This document shows, piece after piece, positions 22,750 through 29,639 of a stretch of DNA of 64,000 nucleotides; the stretch's first letter is position 1, and each line of letters begins with the position of its first letter. The position numbers and the translations under genes were made by a program. The stretch is taken from NCBI GenBank assembly GCA_016125275.1, contig WGMB01000018.1:1-64000 (forward strand), in the 5' to 3' direction. The notes under the pieces are model-generated. The model made no database searches and had not been told where the DNA came from. It was given only the letters and a program-made list of their open reading frames with translations. This DNA comes from Acidobacteriota bacterium. GTDB lineage: Bacteria > Acidobacteriota > Terriglobia > Bryobacterales > UBA6623.

Positions 22750-23538
22750 ATGGCATCCAAGGACTATCTGCACGCACTGTTTGGATTCGACGGTCAAGTC
22801 GCCGTCGTCATCGGGGGCACGGGCGTTCTGGGCGGAGCGCTGTGCGAAGGCCTGGCGCAGGCCGGAGCGCACGTCGTCGTGGCCGGCCGCTCCGCCGACC
22901 GCGGGCTGGAACGCGTCGCCGCCATCGAGAAGCTGGGCGGGCAGGCCAGCTTCCAGGAAGTCGACGTGACTTCCCGGGAGTCCCTCGCCGGCCTTCGGGA
23001 CGCTGTGCTGGCGAGCCACGGCCGCGTGGACGTGCTGGTGAACTGCGCCGGCGTCAACGACGCTACGCCCTACGAAGAGATCCCCGATGAGAAGTGGGAG
23101 CGGGTGCTGAACACGAATCTGACCGCGACCCACCTGGGCTGCCAGCTCTTCGCCCCGGTGATGGCCAAGCAGGCCGAAGGCGGCTCGATCCTGAACATCG
23201 GCAGCGTCACCTCGCACCTACCGCTGTCGAAGGTTTTCGCCTACTCGGCTTCCAAGGCGGCGGTGTTGAACTACACCAAGAACGTTGCGCGTGAGTACGC
23301 CACCCGCGGCGTTCGCGTGAACGCTCTCTGCCCGGGGTTCTTCCCGGCGGAGCAGAACCGCAAGATCCTGGCGCCGGACCGCGTGGAGAAGATCATGGCG
23401 CAGACCCCCATGGCGCGCTTCGGCGAGCCCGAGGAGCTGGTCGGAGCGACGCTGCTGCTGTGCGCCCGCAAGGCCGGTCAGTTCATCACCGGCGCGGAGA
23501 TCTACGTCGACGGCGGTTTCACCGGCATGCGGTTCTAG
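22750..23538 (+). CDS. SDR-family oxidoreductase
   Basis: A 262-residue classical short-chain dehydrogenase. The cofactor motif is GGTGVLGGAL, NCAGVNDATPYE follows, and the catalytic Ser and YSASK (Tyr-x-x-x-Lys) are in the usual places. The C-terminus ends in the family motif ITGAEIYVDGGFTGM. It looks most like the D-mannonate oxidoreductase / gluconate 5-dehydrogenase group, but the sugar substrate cannot be fixed from sequence. The start is the ATG at 22750. It lies 26 bp before the VIT-family gene on the same strand; no sugar-acid pathway genes accompany it. Confidence 0.9.
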   Translation: MASKDYLHALFGFDGQVAVVIGGTGVLGGALCEGLAQAGAHVVVAGRSADRGLERVAAIEKLGGQASFQEVDVTSRESLAGLRDAVLASHGRVDVLVNCAGVNDATPYEEIPDEKWERVLNTNLTATHLGCQLFAPVMAKQAEGGSILNIGSVTSHLPLSKVFAYSASKAAVLNYTKNVAREYATRGVRVNALCPGFFPAEQNRKILAPDRVEKIMAQTPMARFGEPEELVGATLLLCARKAGQFITGAEIYVDGGFTGMRF

Positions 23539-23564
23539 CCGCTGCATCGGGGGAGGGGCTTGCA

Positions 23565-24260
23565 TTGGCGCGAAAGCACGCCGAACGGCACTACGCGGAA
23601 CGCATCGGCTGGCTGCGGGCTGCCGTACTCGGCGCCAATGACGGCATTCTCTCGACGGCCAGCCTGGTGGTGGGCGTCGCTTCGGCTCATGCCGAACGCG
23701 GAGACGTGCTGATCGCCGGGGTGGCCGGTTTGGTGGCGGGAGCCATGTCAATGGCCGCCGGCGAGTACGTCTCGGTGAGCTCGCAGGCCGATACCGAGAA
23801 GGCGGATCTGGCCCGAGAGCGCGAGGAGCTCGAGACCGACAACGCGTTCGAGCACAAAGAGCTGGCCGGAATCTACGTCAAGCGAGGCTTGGACCCGGAG
23901 CTCGCGAAGCAAGTCGCCGAGCAATTGATGGCGAAGGACGCGCTGGGGGCTCATGCGCGCGACGAGCTGGGCCTCAACGAAATTCACGAAGCCCGCCCGA
24001 TTCAGGCGGCGATGGCTTCGGCGGTCACCTTCGCTGTAGGGGCGTCCTCGCCGCTGGTCTTGGCGATCTATGCGCCGCAGGAGTACCTGGCGGCATCCGT
24101 TTCCGTCGGAAGTCTCTTGCTTTTGGGAGTGTTGGGCGGATTGGCGGCTCGGGCCGGCGGCGCCGGAGTGGCCGTGGGCGCGGCGCGGGTGATGTTCTGG
24201 GGCGCGGTGGCGATGGCCGTCACTGCGGGCGTCGGAGCCCTTTTCGGCACAACAGTATGA
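23565..24260 (+). CDS. VIT1/CCC1 family Fe/Mn transporter
   Basis: A 231-residue membrane protein of the VIT1/CCC1 family, which exports or sequesters Fe2+/Mn2+. The N-terminal helix has the family motif AAVLGANDGILSTASLVVGVA, and helix 2 has MSMAAGEYVSVSSQADTE. A charged loop of about 70 residues (ELETDNAFEHKELAGIYVKR) carries the metal-binding Glu/His residues, followed by three C-terminal hydrophobic helices. Start is the TTG at 23565, after GGGAGGGG; no ATG fits. It converges on dps across a hairpin, so two iron-detoxification genes sit tail to tail. Confidence 0.9.
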   Translation: MARKHAERHYAERIGWLRAAVLGANDGILSTASLVVGVASAHAERGDVLIAGVAGLVAGAMSMAAGEYVSVSSQADTEKADLAREREELETDNAFEHKELAGIYVKRGLDPELAKQVAEQLMAKDALGAHARDELGLNEIHEARPIQAAMASAVTFAVGASSPLVLAIYAPQEYLAASVSVGSLLLLGVLGGLAARAGGAGVAVGAARVMFWGAVAMAVTAGVGALFGTTV

Positions 24261-24303: not shown

Positions 24304-24801
24304 TTACTGGTTGTGGGCTTCCACGAACCAGAGCATCTTGTCGACGCCGCGCGAGATGCCGGTGAACAGATCCGCCGTATCCTTGTCACCGGCGGCGTCA
24401 GCCTTGTCGATCGACTGGCGCACGCGCTTGCCGAAGGTTGATAGCGCGGCGGCGTAGGCGTCGACGTGCTCCTTGCCGGAGCGAATCTCCGTCGAGTACT
24501 TGGGCAAGGTCGTCGTCCGTGCCACGGTCTGCGCCGTGCCGTCCGCCACGCCGCCCAACTGGACCAGCCGCTCGGCCAGATCGTCGGAATAGGTCGCGGC
24601 TTCATCGGACGCCGTGTCGAACAGTTCGTGCAAAGCGATGAAGCTGGGACCCTTCACGTTCCAGTGAGCCTGCTTGGACTGCATGCGCAGGTCGAGCGCG
24701 TCAGCCAGGGCTCCCTGCAGCAACGTGATCATGTCGAGGCGGACATCTTCGGGGAGGTCGTTCTTGGTGAGGTTGAGTTGGAGTTTTTCAGTAGCCGTCA
24801 T
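24304..24801 (-). CDS. dps: Dps-family ferritin-like DNA-binding protein
   Basis: A 165-residue Dps protein, which oxidises Fe2+ with H2O2, stores iron in a 12-mer and protects DNA. The ferroxidase-site segment QAHWNVKGPSFIALHELFD and the following DEAATYSDDLAERL are diagnostic. The start is the ATG at 24801, with AGAGGA upstream; the six-codon extension upstream is probably not translated. Its 3' end faces the VIT transporter gene across a hairpin. A bacterioferritin gene lies about 14 kb away. Confidence 0.95.
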   Translation of the reverse strand: MTATEKLQLNLTKNDLPEDVRLDMITLLQGALADALDLRMQSKQAHWNVKGPSFIALHELFDTASDEAATYSDDLAERLVQLGGVADGTAQTVARTTTLPKYSTEIRSGKEHVDAYAAALSTFGKRVRQSIDKADAAGDKDTADLFTGISRGVDKMLWFVEAHNQ

Positions 24802-24872
24802 GGTGGATTCCTCTTTCACATTGTTGATGCAGTTCGGGCCGCGGTTGTTGCAGGAAGCTGCCCGACCCGGCC

Positions 24873-27263
24873 ATGCTGATCCACATGCTATTTTTGCGCG
24901 GTTTCTGCCTAGGGCTCAGTGTTTTTCTCTGTCTTGCGGCGGCGGGCCAGGAGCAGCCCTGCATCATCGACACCTTCGCCGGCGGCGATTCCTACTCGGT
25001 TGGCGACGGCTTGCCTGCCGCTGAAGCCGAGCTGCTCTTCCCCACGGAGGTGCGGCAGGGACCCGACGGTCTGCTCTACATCGCCGATACCGCCTACCAC
25101 CGGATTCGCCGCATTCGGGCCGATGGAACGATCGAGACGATTGCCGGGACCGGCGTGGGGACGTTCACGCCCGACGGCGCTCCGGCAGCGGGCTCGGCTC
25201 TGGTCTTGCCCCGGTCTATCGCCTTCGGGCCGGACGGCGGGCTCTACTTCGTAGAGGGGCTCCGGGTCCGGCGCATCAGCAGCGCAGGAATTCTCGAGAC
25301 GGTCGCCGGCAACGGCCGCGAGGAGCTCTCCGGCGACGGCGGCCCCGCCAAAGATGCCGGCCTGGCGCCGACGATGATTGTCTTCGATCCTGACGGCGGC
25401 CTCATCATCGCCAGCCAGACCCACAATCGAATCCGGCGCGTGGACCCGTCCGGGACGATCTCGACCATTGCGGGCATCGAGCTCGGAGGCTCGAAGTACG
25501 ACGACGGCGACGGCGGCCCGGCCACGGAGGCTCGCGTCTACAGCCCGCGGGACGTCGCGATCGGGCCGGACGGTCTTCTCTACATCGCCGGCGTGTACTC
25601 GGTTCGCAGGATTCTGTCAGACGGAACCATCGAGACGTACGTCTCCGGCTTGAGCGGATCGTCGTCGTCCACTCAGCGGCAGACGATACGACTGAGTGTC
25701 CGCGGAGTGGAGTCCGACGGGCAGTCCTTGATTCTCGACGCCACGGCGGGCGTCGTTCGCTTCGACGAGAACGACGAGCTGGTGGTCCTCTACCCTGCGG
25801 CGGACCTTCCTTCGGACGGGGTCCTCTCCGTGCAGCTGGACGGGCGGATGGTGCTGGCGGCCGACAACGAGGTAGTGTTGCTGGGGAATCCGCCGGTGCG
25901 GGTGGCCGGTCTGGGCGCGGCCTCGAAGCGCGGGGACGGCGGCCCGGCGACGGACGCCTTTCTGTCGGTCCCTGCTCGGCTGGAGGAAGGGCCGGACGGC
26001 TCCATCTATGTCGCCGACGTTGGCCTGCGTCAGATCCGGCGGATCGCCCCGGACGGAATGATCACGACTGCCTATTCCGGTCCGGTCACGGATTTTGCCG
26101 TCGACAAAGAGAACAACCTGTTCGTGAGCCGCGGCCTATCGATCGACAAGATCACGCCGGATGGGACGCGAAGCCCATTCGTCGGCTCCCTCGGCGCGAG
26201 TGGCTGCGCCCCGCCCGTTTGTGCCGAAGGGGTCTCGGCCGCTGGAATGCCGATTCTGCGGGTGCCATCGTTCGACGTGGATGGAGACGGAAACGTCTAC
26301 GCCATCGTCGAGAGGCCAAACTCGAGCTATCTCATCAAGGTTGACGCGCAAGGGCTGCTGGTTTGGCGAGGCCTACAGGTCGAGGCACAGATCTTGCGCG
26401 TGGATTTCGAGGGGCGCATCCACATCCCTTATCGAACCTGGAATATCGTGGAGCCGAATGGCCAACAAACGGTATACGAAGGCCTGGGCTCCTACGCGGG
26501 TTTGCCTGCCGCCTTTAGCGTCGCGCCGGACGGTGCGATCTACGCCGCCAACCCGTACGTGTCCCTTTCCGCGGTCAGTCGATACACGGAAGGGCTGATT
26601 TCCGACCCGATTGCCGGAGGACTAGACGTTGGTTTTGCCGGCGATGGCGGACCGGCTCCCGCCGCGCTTCTTGATTCTGTGCGAGGCCTCATGGTGGCGT
26701 CCGACGGCGCGCTGTACATCAGCGACAGCCGCAATCGGCGCGTGCGACGGGTGACAAGGGCCGGTGAATGCCCGAGCTTGGGGCCCCGGGCGCTGCCGGC
26801 GGTGAGCGGCCCGCGCAACGGCGCCAACTATTCCTTTGTGGCGCCTGGCTCCGTGTTCACACTGTTCGGATTGCGGCTCGGTCCGGCCGGCCTGCAGACG
26901 GCGACCCTCCAATCCGGAAATCGCTTGCCAACCCGGTTGGCCGGGACGCGGATCTTGTTCGATGGCGTCGCGGCCCCGCTCCTGTACGTGTCCGCCGGCC
27001 AAGTCGGCGGCGTCGTGCCGTTTTCTTCTCCGGTCAATGTAGACGTCGACGAGTACGGAGCCGGTCGCTGGAATGGCCCGGGTCCGCGTGTTGTGGTGGA
27101 AACGGACGTCGGCCGTTCCGACCCGAGGGGTCATGCAGGTCAACGCGCGCATTCCGAGGACCCAACAGTCTCTGGGCGAGAACGATATTTGGATCACGGT
27201 CGGACCGGGCGGTCCGAACTACGGTGTGAAGATCTTCACCGCGGAATAGCGGCCGAGGCTTGA
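24873..27263 (+). CDS. NHL-repeat protein with damaged TIGR03437 tail
   Basis: A 796-residue exported protein with a signal peptide (MLIHMLFLRGFCLGLSVFL) and a chain of NHL-type beta-propeller blades marked by recurrent GDGGPA (residues ~155, ~212, ~352, ~590) and GPDGLLYIAD-like strands. Residues ~655-740 begin a TIGR03437 domain (GANYSFVAPGSVFTLFG). After VVVETDVG the frame turns to sequence unlike the family, and the true end of the domain (GVMQVNARIP) appears in the +1 frame. The middle of the domain, about 80-100 residues, seems to be missing. The propeller half is probably expressed; the tail is damaged. Cell-surface or secreted location is inferred. Confidence 0.85.
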   Translation: MLIHMLFLRGFCLGLSVFLCLAAAGQEQPCIIDTFAGGDSYSVGDGLPAAEAELLFPTEVRQGPDGLLYIADTAYHRIRRIRADGTIETIAGTGVGTFTPDGAPAAGSALVLPRSIAFGPDGGLYFVEGLRVRRISSAGILETVAGNGREELSGDGGPAKDAGLAPTMIVFDPDGGLIIASQTHNRIRRVDPSGTISTIAGIELGGSKYDDGDGGPATEARVYSPRDVAIGPDGLLYIAGVYSVRRILSDGTIETYVSGLSGSSSSTQRQTIRLSVRGVESDGQSLILDATAGVVRFDENDELVVLYPAADLPSDGVLSVQLDGRMVLAADNEVVLLGNPPVRVAGLGAASKRGDGGPATDAFLSVPARLEEGPDGSIYVADVGLRQIRRIAPDGMITTAYSGPVTDFAVDKENNLFVSRGLSIDKITPDGTRSPFVGSLGASGCAPPVCAEGVSAAGMPILRVPSFDVDGDGNVYAIVERPNSSYLIKVDAQGLLVWRGLQVEAQILRVDFEGRIHIPYRTWNIVEPNGQQTVYEGLGSYAGLPAAFSVAPDGAIYAANPYVSLSAVSRYTEGLISDPIAGGLDVGFAGDGGPAPAALLDSVRGLMVASDGALYISDSRNRRVRRVTRAGECPSLGPRALPAVSGPRNGANYSFVAPGSVFTLFGLRLGPAGLQTATLQSGNRLPTRLAGTRILFDGVAAPLLYVSAGQVGGVVPFSSPVNVDVDEYGAGRWNGPGPRVVVETDVGRSDPRGHAGQRAHSEDPTVSGRERYLDHGRTGRSELRCEDLHRGIAAEA
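27112..27249 (+). pseudogene. Out-of-frame end of the TIGR03437 domain
   Basis: In the +1 frame relative to the upstream gene the sequence reads VPTRGVMQVNARIP, then ENDIWITVGPGGPNYG and a stop at 27247-27249. This is the usual C-terminal end of TIGR03437 domains; compare YQVNLLLPEDLAPGDVTA in the intact copy at 40608-41420. It cannot be translated with the rest of the protein as sequenced. Confidence 0.75.
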
Positions 27264-27299
27264 CCTACGAAGAGAATCGTACTACGATCCTCTTCGTAG
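27260..27299 (+). promoter_or_regulatory. blaI-type promoter with 35-bp palindromic operator
   Basis: TTGACC (27260-27265), a spacer of exactly 17 bp and TACGAT (27283-27288) form a good sigma-70 promoter. A 35-bp palindrome spans 27265-27299, centred on C27282: the arms are CTACGAAGAG then ATCGTA on the left and TACGAT then CTCTTCGTAG on the right, with a single mismatch. It covers the whole spacer and the -10, and ends one base before the ATG at 27300. It is the probable operator of the adjacent BlaI-type repressor. Transcription would start about 27295, leaving a leader of about 5 nt. Confidence 0.85.
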
Positions 27300-27710
27300 A
27301 TGACCGCAAGCAACCCGCCTCGCCCCACCGACGCTGAGCTCGAGATTCTCTCGGTGCTCTGGGGCCGCGGCCCCAGCACCGTGCGAGACGTCCACGACGT
27401 CATCGTCGAGCGGCGGCCGGCCCAATACACCACGACGCTGAAGCAGCTCCAGATCATGGCCGACAAAGGCCTGGTCCGGCGCAACGTCAAACAGCGCGCC
27501 CACATTTACGAAGCCGCCGTACCGCGGGAGCAGACCCAGCGGCAACTGGCCGGCGATCTCATCGACCGCGCCTTCGGCGGCTCCGCCAAGAGCCTGCTGC
27601 TGGGCGCTCTGTCGTCTCACCAAGCCACCGCCGACGAGCTCGCCGAGATCCGCAAGGTCCTCGATGAGCACGAAGCCAAGTTGAAAGAGTCCGGGAGGAA
27701 GAAGCTGTGA
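27300..27710 (+). CDS. BlaI/MecI/CopY family repressor
   Basis: A 136-residue winged-helix repressor. The N-terminal DNA-binding domain (PTDAELEILSVLWGRGPST, TTTLKQLQIMADKGLVRR) matches the BlaI/MecI family, whose members repress their own operon until cleaved by a partner membrane protease. The C-terminal helices would dimerise. The start is ATG at 27300, right at the edge of the palindromic operator; no Shine-Dalgarno is possible in the short predicted leader. Its stop overlaps the start of the M56 protease gene, so the two are coupled. Autorepression is inferred from the operator. Confidence 0.93.
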   Translation: MTASNPPRPTDAELEILSVLWGRGPSTVRDVHDVIVERRPAQYTTTLKQLQIMADKGLVRRNVKQRAHIYEAAVPREQTQRQLAGDLIDRAFGGSAKSLLLGALSSHQATADELAEIRKVLDEHEAKLKESGRKKL

Positions 27711-29224
27711 TGAGCCTCGAAGGTTGGGTGCAAACCCCGTTTGCGCAGGCGCTCGGCGCCGCCCTGTTGCATTCCCTGTGGCAGGGGGCGGCCGTCGCCG
27801 CCCTGCTGGCTGGGGCCCTGTGGCGTTGCAGGGAGTCCGCGCGGCTGCGTCACGATCTCGCTCTGGCCGCGCTGGTCGCGATGCCGGCGCTGTTCCTCGG
27901 GACGTTCGCCATCAGCCTAACGCCCGGCGGGGAGGCCGGAGGCGACGCCGGTTTCGTTCTGGCCGGCGGCGCGGCGGAGACGGCCGGCTCCGGCGTCGCT
28001 CCCTGGATGGAGCAAGCCTCCTGGGTCGCAACTCTCGAGAAGGCCGCGCCCCGGATCGTGCCTTGGTGGCTGGCCGGCGTGCTGGGCTTCAACCTCTGGC
28101 AGCTTGGGACCTGGCTGGCCGCGCGGCGGCTGCGGACCGTCGGCGCCCTGCCGGCGAGCCCGGACTGGCAGGAGCGGTTGCGCGGTTTGGGCGAAAAGCT
28201 CGGCCTCGATCGCGGGGTCGCCCTCCTGGAGTCGAGCCGTGTGGACTCTCCGGCCGTGCTGGGCTACTGGAAGCCGGTCGTGTTGGTTCCGCTGGGGCTG
28301 CTGGCGGCGTGCCCGGCCGAGCAGATCGAGCTGATCCTGCTGCACGAGCTGGCCCACCTGCGGCGCCGCGACGACTGGATCGACCTGCTGTGCCGCTTCA
28401 CGGAGGGGCTGTTCTTCTACCACCCCGCCGTCTGGTGGGCCTCGTCGGTGATCGCCGAGGAGCGGGAGAACTGCTGCGACGACTTGGCGGTGGCGGCCTC
28501 CGGGGAACCGTTGGCCTATGCCCGCGCCTTGGCCGGACTGGAGGGGCTGCGGGCGGCGCCCGCGCTCGCGCTGGGAGCGGCTGACGGCTCTCTGTTAAGG
28601 CGCATCCGCCGGATCGTCGGCGCGGCGGAGCCTGCGAGGTCAGCGACGCCGGTTTCGGCGATGGCTGGGGTGTTGCTGGCAGGCGGGCTGGCCTTGCTGG
28701 CGGCTTGGCCGACGCCGGCCACGGCGCAATCGGCGATGAGCGCGGCGCACGAGAAGTGGCTGAAGGAGGATGTTGTCTGGCTCCTCCCTTTGGAGGAGCG
28801 GCGAGCGTTCGAGGCGCTGCCGTCGGACGCCGAGCGCGACGAATTCATTGCGAAGTTCTGGGCCGATCGTGATCCGACGCCGGGGACGCCCGAGAATGAA
28901 TTCAAAACCGAACATTACCGCCGGATCGCTTACGTCAACGATCGCTACAAGGACGAGGAACCGCGCGGCGGTTGGCGCACCGAGCGGGGCCGGATCTACA
29001 TTCTGCTAGGCCCGCCCGACGAGATCGAGGCGCATCCTTCGGGGGGAGGGAATCCGCCGGTGAACCTTCCGCCGGCCGCGCCCTATGAGATGTGGCGCTA
29101 TCGCGCCCAGGGCGACCGGCCGGAGGGGTTCTTCGTGTTCGCCGATCGAGACAGCTCGGGGGTTTTTACGATGATTCGGGGAGAGTTCCCGCCGGCTGGT
29201 TCACCGGACGATCCGAACGACTGA
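27710..29224 (+). CDS. BlaR1-like M56 peptidase fused to a GWxTD domain
   Basis: A 504-residue protein. Residues ~1-320 are an M56 (BlaR1/MecR1-like) membrane metalloprotease with several hydrophobic helices; the zinc site is HELAH at 212-216, with RENCCDDLAVA downstream. A further helix near 320-345 leads to a C-terminal GWxTD-type domain (~345-500; DAERDEFIAKFWADRDPTPG, GRIYILLGPPDEIEAHPSG, YEMWRYR). A penicillin-binding sensor domain is absent, so the inducing signal is probably not a beta-lactam. The partner BlaI repressor overlaps by 1 bp. The ATG at 27710 is preferred to the GTG at 27707. The likely role is signal-induced repressor cleavage, with the GWxTD domain as an extracytoplasmic sensor. 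Confidence 0.88.
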   Translation: MSLEGWVQTPFAQALGAALLHSLWQGAAVAALLAGALWRCRESARLRHDLALAALVAMPALFLGTFAISLTPGGEAGGDAGFVLAGGAAETAGSGVAPWMEQASWVATLEKAAPRIVPWWLAGVLGFNLWQLGTWLAARRLRTVGALPASPDWQERLRGLGEKLGLDRGVALLESSRVDSPAVLGYWKPVVLVPLGLLAACPAEQIELILLHELAHLRRRDDWIDLLCRFTEGLFFYHPAVWWASSVIAEERENCCDDLAVAASGEPLAYARALAGLEGLRAAPALALGAADGSLLRRIRRIVGAAEPARSATPVSAMAGVLLAGGLALLAAWPTPATAQSAMSAAHEKWLKEDVVWLLPLEERRAFEALPSDAERDEFIAKFWADRDPTPGTPENEFKTEHYRRIAYVNDRYKDEEPRGGWRTERGRIYILLGPPDEIEAHPSGGGNPPVNLPPAAPYEMWRYRAQGDRPEGFFVFADRDSSGVFTMIRGEFPPAGSPDDPND

Positions 29225-29235
29225 TCGTAGGAGAA

Positions 29236-29257
29236 GGACGGACACGAATGTCCGTCC
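29236..29257. terminator. Hairpin between convergent genes
   Basis: GGACGGACA and TGTCCGTCC form a perfect 9-bp stem around the loop CGAA, placed between the M56 gene stop (29224) and the NTF2-like gene stop (29271). The absence of a T-run leaves termination as an inference. Confidence 0.55.
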
Positions 29258-29270
29258 CCGCCAAGACTTG

Positions 29271-29639
29271 CTAGTGAGGCCGGCGGACGGCTTGGCGCGC
29301 CACCATGCGCCAAGCCCCGTTGTCCTTCACGAACACGTGCAGCACATTGAGGTAGGCGATCGAGTCCACATCGTCCTTGCGGTTGGTGTAATCCACGTCG
29401 GCCTTCACAAAACCGGCGTTGCCGTAGTCGCGGACGACCACATTCGAAAACTCGATCTTTTGCGCGCCGCCCGGGCGGGAGGCCTTCGAGATCACGTCGT
29501 CCTTGTTCTCGTGCTTGGCGTCGGAGTGGCTGTAGGCCAAGTCCGGATGCAGCACGGCGTCGAGCGCCGCGGCGTCCTTGGAAATCATCGCGTTCTTCCA
29601 CGCGTCGAGCGCGGCGAGGAGCTCTTCGTGAGTGTTCAT
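29271..29639 (-). CDS. NTF2-like (SnoaL/DUF4440-type) protein
   Basis: A 122-residue protein of the NTF2-like fold. The first helix (EELLAALDAWKNAMISKDA), the LDAVLHPDLAYSHSDAKHENK segment and the final strand DNGAWRMVARQAVRR fit the DUF4440/SnoaL-like family, which includes both enzymes and ligand-binding proteins. No signal peptide, so cytosolic. It is followed upstream on the same strand by the alcohol dehydrogenase gene with 20 bp between, so the two may be cotranscribed. Substrate unknown. Confidence 0.82.
   Translation of the reverse strand: MNTHEELLAALDAWKNAMISKDAAALDAVLHPDLAYSHSDAKHENKDDVISKASRPGGAQKIEFSNVVVRDYGNAGFVKADVDYTNRKDDVDSIAYLNVLHVFVKDNGAWRMVARQAVRRPH

Follow-up and report, generated by a model that had tools for sequence, protein, structure and literature searches.

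In the window, the stretch of 64,000 nucleotides of DNA from a soil bacterium of the Acidobacteriota that was analysed, positions 27300 to 29224 are occupied by two overlapping genes on the forward strand, the first encoding a repressor of the BlaI/MecI type and the second a membrane protease that carries a GWxTD domain at its C-terminus. A promoter and a putative operator lie directly ahead of the gene pair, and the features are as follows.

27260 to 27288, + strand: operon promoter, with the -35 box TTGACC (27260-27265), a 17-base spacer and the -10 box TACGAT (27283-27288)
27265 to 27299, no strand assigned: putative BlaI operator, a 35-base near-perfect palindrome with two TACGA-N6-TCGTA dyads
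27300 to 27710, + strand: BlaI/MecI-type repressor, 136 aa (PF03965, 88.1 bits, profile positions 2-115 of 115; matches solved BlaI and MecI)
27693 to 27698, + strand: GGGAGG 5' of the protease gene, read from the sequence as a possible ribosome-binding site
27710 to 29224, + strand: M56-GWxTD receptor protease, 504 aa, from the ATG at 27710 to the stop at 29224; the ATG shares one base with the stop codon of the BlaI gene (TGATG)
28052 to 28558, + strand: M56 protease domain, residues 115-283 (PF05569)
28343 to 28357, + strand: HELAH zinc motif, residues 212-216, forming the gluzincin signature with E253 and D257
28652 to 28708, + strand: last membrane helix, residues 315-333 (hydropathy 1.96 over 19 residues; model helix 313-331)
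28757 to 29104, + strand: GWxTD domain, residues 350-465, putative periplasmic sensor (TIGR04514; model of residues 339-504 with pLDDT 90.9)

The pair and its gene order are kept in relatives, and therefore neither reading frame is a chance reading. An earlier note on this DNA had described a BlaR1-type M56 protease with HELAH at residues 212-216, an overlapping BlaI partner and a C-terminus of the GWxTD type instead of a penicillin-binding one, and its coordinates, motif position and domain call proved to be right. The receptor matches Peptidase_M56 (PF05569) with 96.8 bits over residues 115-283 and GWxTD_dom (PF20094) with 35.5 bits, both above the curated Pfam cut-offs, and the NCBIfam model TIGR04514 reaches 102.5 bits (cut-off 28), with residues 350-465 covering the whole model (1-105 of 105). 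The repressor matches Penicillinase_R, with its winged helix and dimerisation domain, at full length, and it matches the solved structures 1sd4 and 1okr along almost all of their sequence.

A membrane protease built like BlaR1

An AlphaFold model of the receptor (pLDDT 86.9) superimposes on Staphylococcus aureus BlaR1 with a Z of 19.8 over 242 residues, model residues 15-297 falling on BlaR1 residues 1-293 only, and a profile of 37 M56-GWxTD fusions finds the same protein in the PDB (E 2.5e-15) as the sole M56-family receptor among the solved structures matched by that search. In BlaR1, the protease site of which faces the cytoplasm, cryo-EM has located the zinc site at H201ExxH and E242xxxD246, and Asp210, Tyr261 and Arg294 are important in addition (PMC9834060). 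In the register given by the profile match and the structure superposition, H201, E202 and H205 correspond to H212, E213 and H216 of the window receptor, D210 to D221, E242xxxD246 to E253xxxD257, Y261 to Y270, and R294 to R298. H212, E213, H216, D221, E253, D257 and R298 are invariant in all 37 fusions, and Y270 is kept in at least 90% of them. The HExxH and ExxxD gluzincin site and the membrane scaffold of peptidase family M56 are both present, and because the catalytic residues and the BlaR1 fold match, the protease is very probably active and of BlaR1 design. Two loops have no confident structure in the model, namely residues of about 71-97 between helices 2 and 3, at the position of the BlaR1 signalling loop EL1, and a segment near 281-290, at the position of the BlaR1 autocleavage loop; the outer loop between helices 2 and 3 is shorter than in staphylococcal BlaR1 and MecR1. 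The match to BlaR1, together with the last membrane helix, would place the C-terminus of the receptor outside the cytoplasm, with the zinc site cytoplasmic and the GWxTD domain periplasmic. A signal-peptidase-like site near residue 340, TPATA-QSA, which follows the last membrane helix, was rejected; it is not conserved in relatives.

The class D beta-lactamase-like penicillin-binding sensor with SxxK that characterises BlaR1 and MecR1 is absent from the receptor: no SxxK follows residue 338 in the translation, the C-terminal 166 aa match no PBP and no family besides GWxTD above chance, and the NCBI BlaR1 model (NF000326) gives 64 bits against a cut-off of 400, on model positions 106-249 of 585 only. 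Judged from its sequence, the receptor is a membrane protease built like BlaR1 with a different outer domain, and, because the defining penicillin-binding sensor is missing, it does not belong to the beta-lactam receptors, though by analogy it would work like BlaR1/BlaI. The outer domain probably monitors a different state of the cell envelope.

The isolated domain model (residues 339-504) consists of five helices followed by four strands. This modelling, a check that the earlier note had proposed, gave no convincing fold match; compared with solved structures, the best Foldseek hit had E 0.17 with TM 0.18 and the best VIA hit a Z of 4.6, neither being a safe match, but a missing match proves nothing and no fold is claimed. 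PBP2a stands in the Foldseek list at E about 1.2 and TM 0.16, which is no match. Residues 424-493 resemble OsmE with a Z of 4.1-4.3 over 53-54 residues, below any safe threshold, and BLIP-type proteins and YjgB stand lower in the lists; a helix, a G-x-P turn and strands in this region are possibly common to BamE/OsmE lipoproteins, BLIP-type inhibitors and the receptor. An hhalign comparison of GWxTD with BamE and OsmE, two sequences only, was not significant (E 0.13, probability 0.5%), a Pfam scan that covered 36 GWxTD domains and went as far as E 10 gave no BamE match, and a BamE-family match occurs in just two of 41 related genomes. A BamE-like fold of GWxTD is a lead from modelling and not a result. 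The receptor of one relative (L169) ends in only the second half of the domain, which suggests that this half (residues 424-493) is a unit of its own.

Promoter, putative operator and repressor

The TTGACC-17-TACGAT promoter is the sole promoter-like site within 27100-29400 (shuffles gave a mean of 0.1). Only 11 bases separate its -10 box from the ATG, and the operon mRNA is thus probably nearly leaderless. The palindrome, with arms of 17 nt that are 94% complementary, shares its first base with the end of the -35 box, spans the -10 box and extends right up to the ATG of the BlaI gene, so that a dyad operator over the own promoter, as is typical of BlaI and MecI, is present as a putative and conserved sequence feature. 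The layout TTGACA-TACGA-N6-TCGTAGTA...TCGTA, with the start codon immediately after it or a few bases further on, is found in most relatives, the receptors of which are 34-47% identical to that of the window.

Outside this palindrome TACGAN6TCGTA is absent from the 7.55 Mb genome, and the composite of promoter and dyad, with up to three mismatches allowed, has four other places in it. Three of these are at the three-mismatch limit and have no BlaI or M56 gene after them; the fourth stands ahead of another BlaI gene and has a different core, ACTAATTTATTAGT, which suggests that BlaI paralogues may have separate operator codes. At G000:C14:277740-277764 (L125), a ACTAATTTATTAGT dyad lies between TTGAC and the BlaI start of another BlaI-M56 operon of the same genome. 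In twelve relatives the composite was matched 14 times, in ten genomes, and 13 of the matches precede BlaI-M56 operons, the exception being a three-mismatch site (G045:C48) with no recognisable gene after it. A genome-wide search that allowed one mismatch gave 30 sites per strand for the reversed pattern and 59 for the operator itself; the latter are mostly GC-rich and were taken as largely due to chance. The operator search of the genome found no output gene, and it leaves room for weaker BlaI sites elsewhere. As clear matches precede only BlaI-M56 operons in the genomes searched, the circuit looks self-regulating.

The window operon resembles the BlaR1/BlaI and MecR1/MecI systems of Staphylococcus aureus in its adjacent repressor and M56 genes, its catalytic residues, its repressor family and a dyad operator over the promoter, whereas the GWxTD sensor, the absence of a resistance gene and the operator word TACGA-N6-TCGTA set it apart. 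A further difference concerns the bond that is cleaved. Staphylococcal BlaI and MecI have an Asn-Phe scissile bond, and the Phe following the cut in BlaI is near-invariant (PMC9834060), whereas the aligned residues of the window repressor are Gly102-Ala103. At this position most BlaIs linked to GWxTD receptors have Gly-Ala, and most of those linked to other M56 proteins have Gln-Ala. Since the Asn101-Phe102 bond that BlaR1 cuts in BlaI is replaced by Gly-Ala, either the specificity of the protease would differ from that of BlaR1 or BlaI would be cut elsewhere.

Relatives and a probable exchange of sensors

The M56-GWxTD architecture is not peculiar to the window genome but has dozens of relatives: 38 of the best 80 loci in a collection of species genomes are M56-GWxTD fusions, nearly all of them labelled Acidobacteriota and one Nevskia soli. 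The fusion and its BlaI recur in many Acidobacteriota, and BlaI is the only recurrent neighbour, with no conserved third gene. A phylum-wide search with a full-length profile (E 1e-100) found both domains in the window protein and M56 alone in the others, a count that was not used as evidence for the absence of fusions since only five candidates per genome were scored. That GWxTD domains are common in Acidobacteriota, as had been claimed earlier, agrees with matches in most of 61 genomes and in none of 14 control genomes. A literature search gave no relevant paper on GWxTD and no role for it, nothing on a BlaI/BlaR1 architecture in Acidobacteria and no paper on the M56-GWxTD variant, which is visible in databases by its domains.

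On a tree of the M56 domains the GWxTD label changes about six times, at least three of the changes being forced by well supported branches, and the GWxTD domains of the window receptor and of L036 are sisters, whereas the M56 domains of these two receptors are not; on these grounds the GWxTD domain seems to have been exchanged. In M56-GWxTD relatives the domain may be followed by TonB_C, POTRA or a biotin-lipoyl segment. Receptors at L032:4971-7487 and L033:1244-3676 end in a surface-antigen-type POTRA (PF07244), and that at L028:4992-7298 continues after GWxTD with a biotin-lipoyl/HlyD-like segment and a terminal TonB_C. Other M56 proteins have outer ends of DUF3738/TIGR03435, CarboxypepD_reg repeats, TIGR03436 VWA or helical repeats, and the examples with CarboxypepD_reg, DUF3738, helical repeats and half a GWxTD domain stand behind the same kind of operator, which precedes a BlaI gene. 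The M56 fusions of Acidobacteriota with DUF3738/TIGR03435, TIGR03436 VWA, CarboxypepD_reg, TonB_C or POTRA have the same protease half as the window receptor and differ in the outer domain, and several are longer, up to 1109 aa. Sequence comparison thus presents the M56 receptors of Acidobacteriota as a family with exchangeable sensors, of which the window receptor is one of several variants.

Most related genomes also encode GWxTD as a separate protein; this stand-alone form has 550-640 aa and a start resembling a signal peptide, and its domain is about 50% identical to that of the window receptor. These proteins (for example L161:6854-8515, 553 aa) share the domain with the receptor but have no protease, carry an extra C-terminal region and always adjoin a gene for a CarboxypepD_reg/barrel-like protein. 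In all 16 genomes examined, the next gene downstream, on the strand of the GWxTD gene, encodes a member of this one family. The distance is 3-94 bases in 15 of them; the sixteenth (L176) has slightly overlapping annotated reading frames and, upstream, a short second copy of GWxTD. The strictly conserved pair of GWxTD and CarboxypepD_reg barrel-like genes is found at L161:5003-8515 and at the same place in L170-L184. The neighbour has an N-terminal CarboxypepD_reg domain (in the one member that was scanned) and no NCBIfam match, and its last residue is Phe or Tyr in 16 of 16 genomes (RGGxSFIF and variants). A C-terminal Phe or Tyr is of the kind carried by outer-membrane barrel proteins as a BAM signal, and the term barrel-like refers to this C-terminus.

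The proposed circuit and its possible cue

The reading that is judged rather probable is that of a two-gene, self-regulating circuit of the BlaR1/BlaI type in which the sensor has been exchanged and the cue is tied to outer-membrane barrels. BlaI would bind the palindrome over its own promoter and keep the operon low, and the receptor would sit in the inner membrane in the orientation given above. By analogy with BlaR1, a cue reaching the GWxTD domain would cause the protease to cut within the dimerisation part of BlaI, which would switch the operon on. Given that the search turned up no further operator, what the circuit mainly adjusts may be the receptor itself. The earlier note had spoken of a complete sense-and-cleave circuit; a sense-and-cleave receptor is likely, but "complete" goes too far for an operator found only before its own operon.

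The weakest step is the nature of the cue, which would probably be outer-membrane barrel proteins or their transport and not beta-lactams. Because the stand-alone GWxTD gene adjoins a barrel-like gene and sister sensors contain TonB_C, POTRA and CarboxypepD_reg, the comparison suggests an outer-membrane-related cue, with the proviso that the barrel association concerns the stand-alone protein and not the receptor, the window operon having no barrel neighbour.

Rather unlikely is an alternative in which the receptor is itself the effector, its M56 protease acting on substrates other than BlaI, GWxTD placing it at the envelope and BlaI holding its amount constant. The position of the only operator found, ahead of the own operon, and the bulky binding modules of sister proteins (TonB_C, POTRA, VWA) would fit such a role, but the BlaR1-like membrane part would leave the membrane between the catalytic site and GWxTD (PMC9834060; model), and the only conserved companion is BlaI. 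It is improbable that the receptor still answers beta-lactams or peptidoglycan damage, with GWxTD sensing the same class of stress as the PBP domain: the protease and the repressor are of the BlaR1/BlaI kind and residues 424-493 have a weak likeness to a fold that includes beta-lactamase-inhibitor proteins, but the C-terminus has neither SxxK nor a PBP match, the operon contains no beta-lactamase or PBP gene, the genome search gave no second operator and the neighbours are not conserved. The idea that domain shuffling left the C-terminal domain behind as a relic that no longer senses anything would agree with the label changes on the M56 tree and with the half domain of L169, but has very little probability in view of ten invariant columns and a mean column identity of 47% in 36 fusion domains. 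Hardly credible, too, is a repressor switched by its own metal or small ligand as in CopY, with the M56-GWxTD protein as an accessory. In its favour, the CopY model gives 50 bits for the repressor, though the cut-off is 122; on the other side, the repressor has no cysteine and therefore lacks the CopY metal site, and it belongs to a conserved BlaI-M56 pairing.

The preferred self-regulating circuit can be extended to a wider reading, possible but well short of probable, in which BlaI and M56 of Acidobacteriota form the chassis of a plug-in receptor, controlled by a self-contained promoter-operator directly adjoining the start codon. The modules GWxTD, TonB_C, POTRA and CarboxypepD_reg would have been taken over from the machinery for outer-membrane barrels and transport, GWxTD would be a periplasmic barrel partner, possibly with a BamE-like fold, and the state of the outer membrane would be reported by direct cleavage of the repressor. 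If true, this would be a principle different from that of the sigma-E/DegS and Cpx systems. BlaR1 is mostly regarded as a device of antibiotic resistance; a widespread natural set of receptors that join the same chassis to other sensors would make it possible to study how the protease is switched by an outer domain. What the analysis adds is a receptor family with exchangeable sensors and an operator that can be recognised, together with a lead on what GWxTD does that can be put to the test; partner gene, operator and reporter would be a first functional handle on this domain.

Upstream of the operon, the window contains at 24873-27263 (+) a gene for an NHL-repeat protein with a broken C-terminal TIGR03437 domain, of which only model positions 3-77 of 225 match; a typical TIGR03437 end (MQVNARIP...VKIFTAE*) lies in another frame at about 27130-27249, and the break is due either to a frameshift or deletion or to an assembly error. 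Further upstream, the genes for a VIT1-family transporter (23460-24260, +) and Dps (24304-24819, -) are convergent and 43 bases apart, an apparent iron-handling pair.
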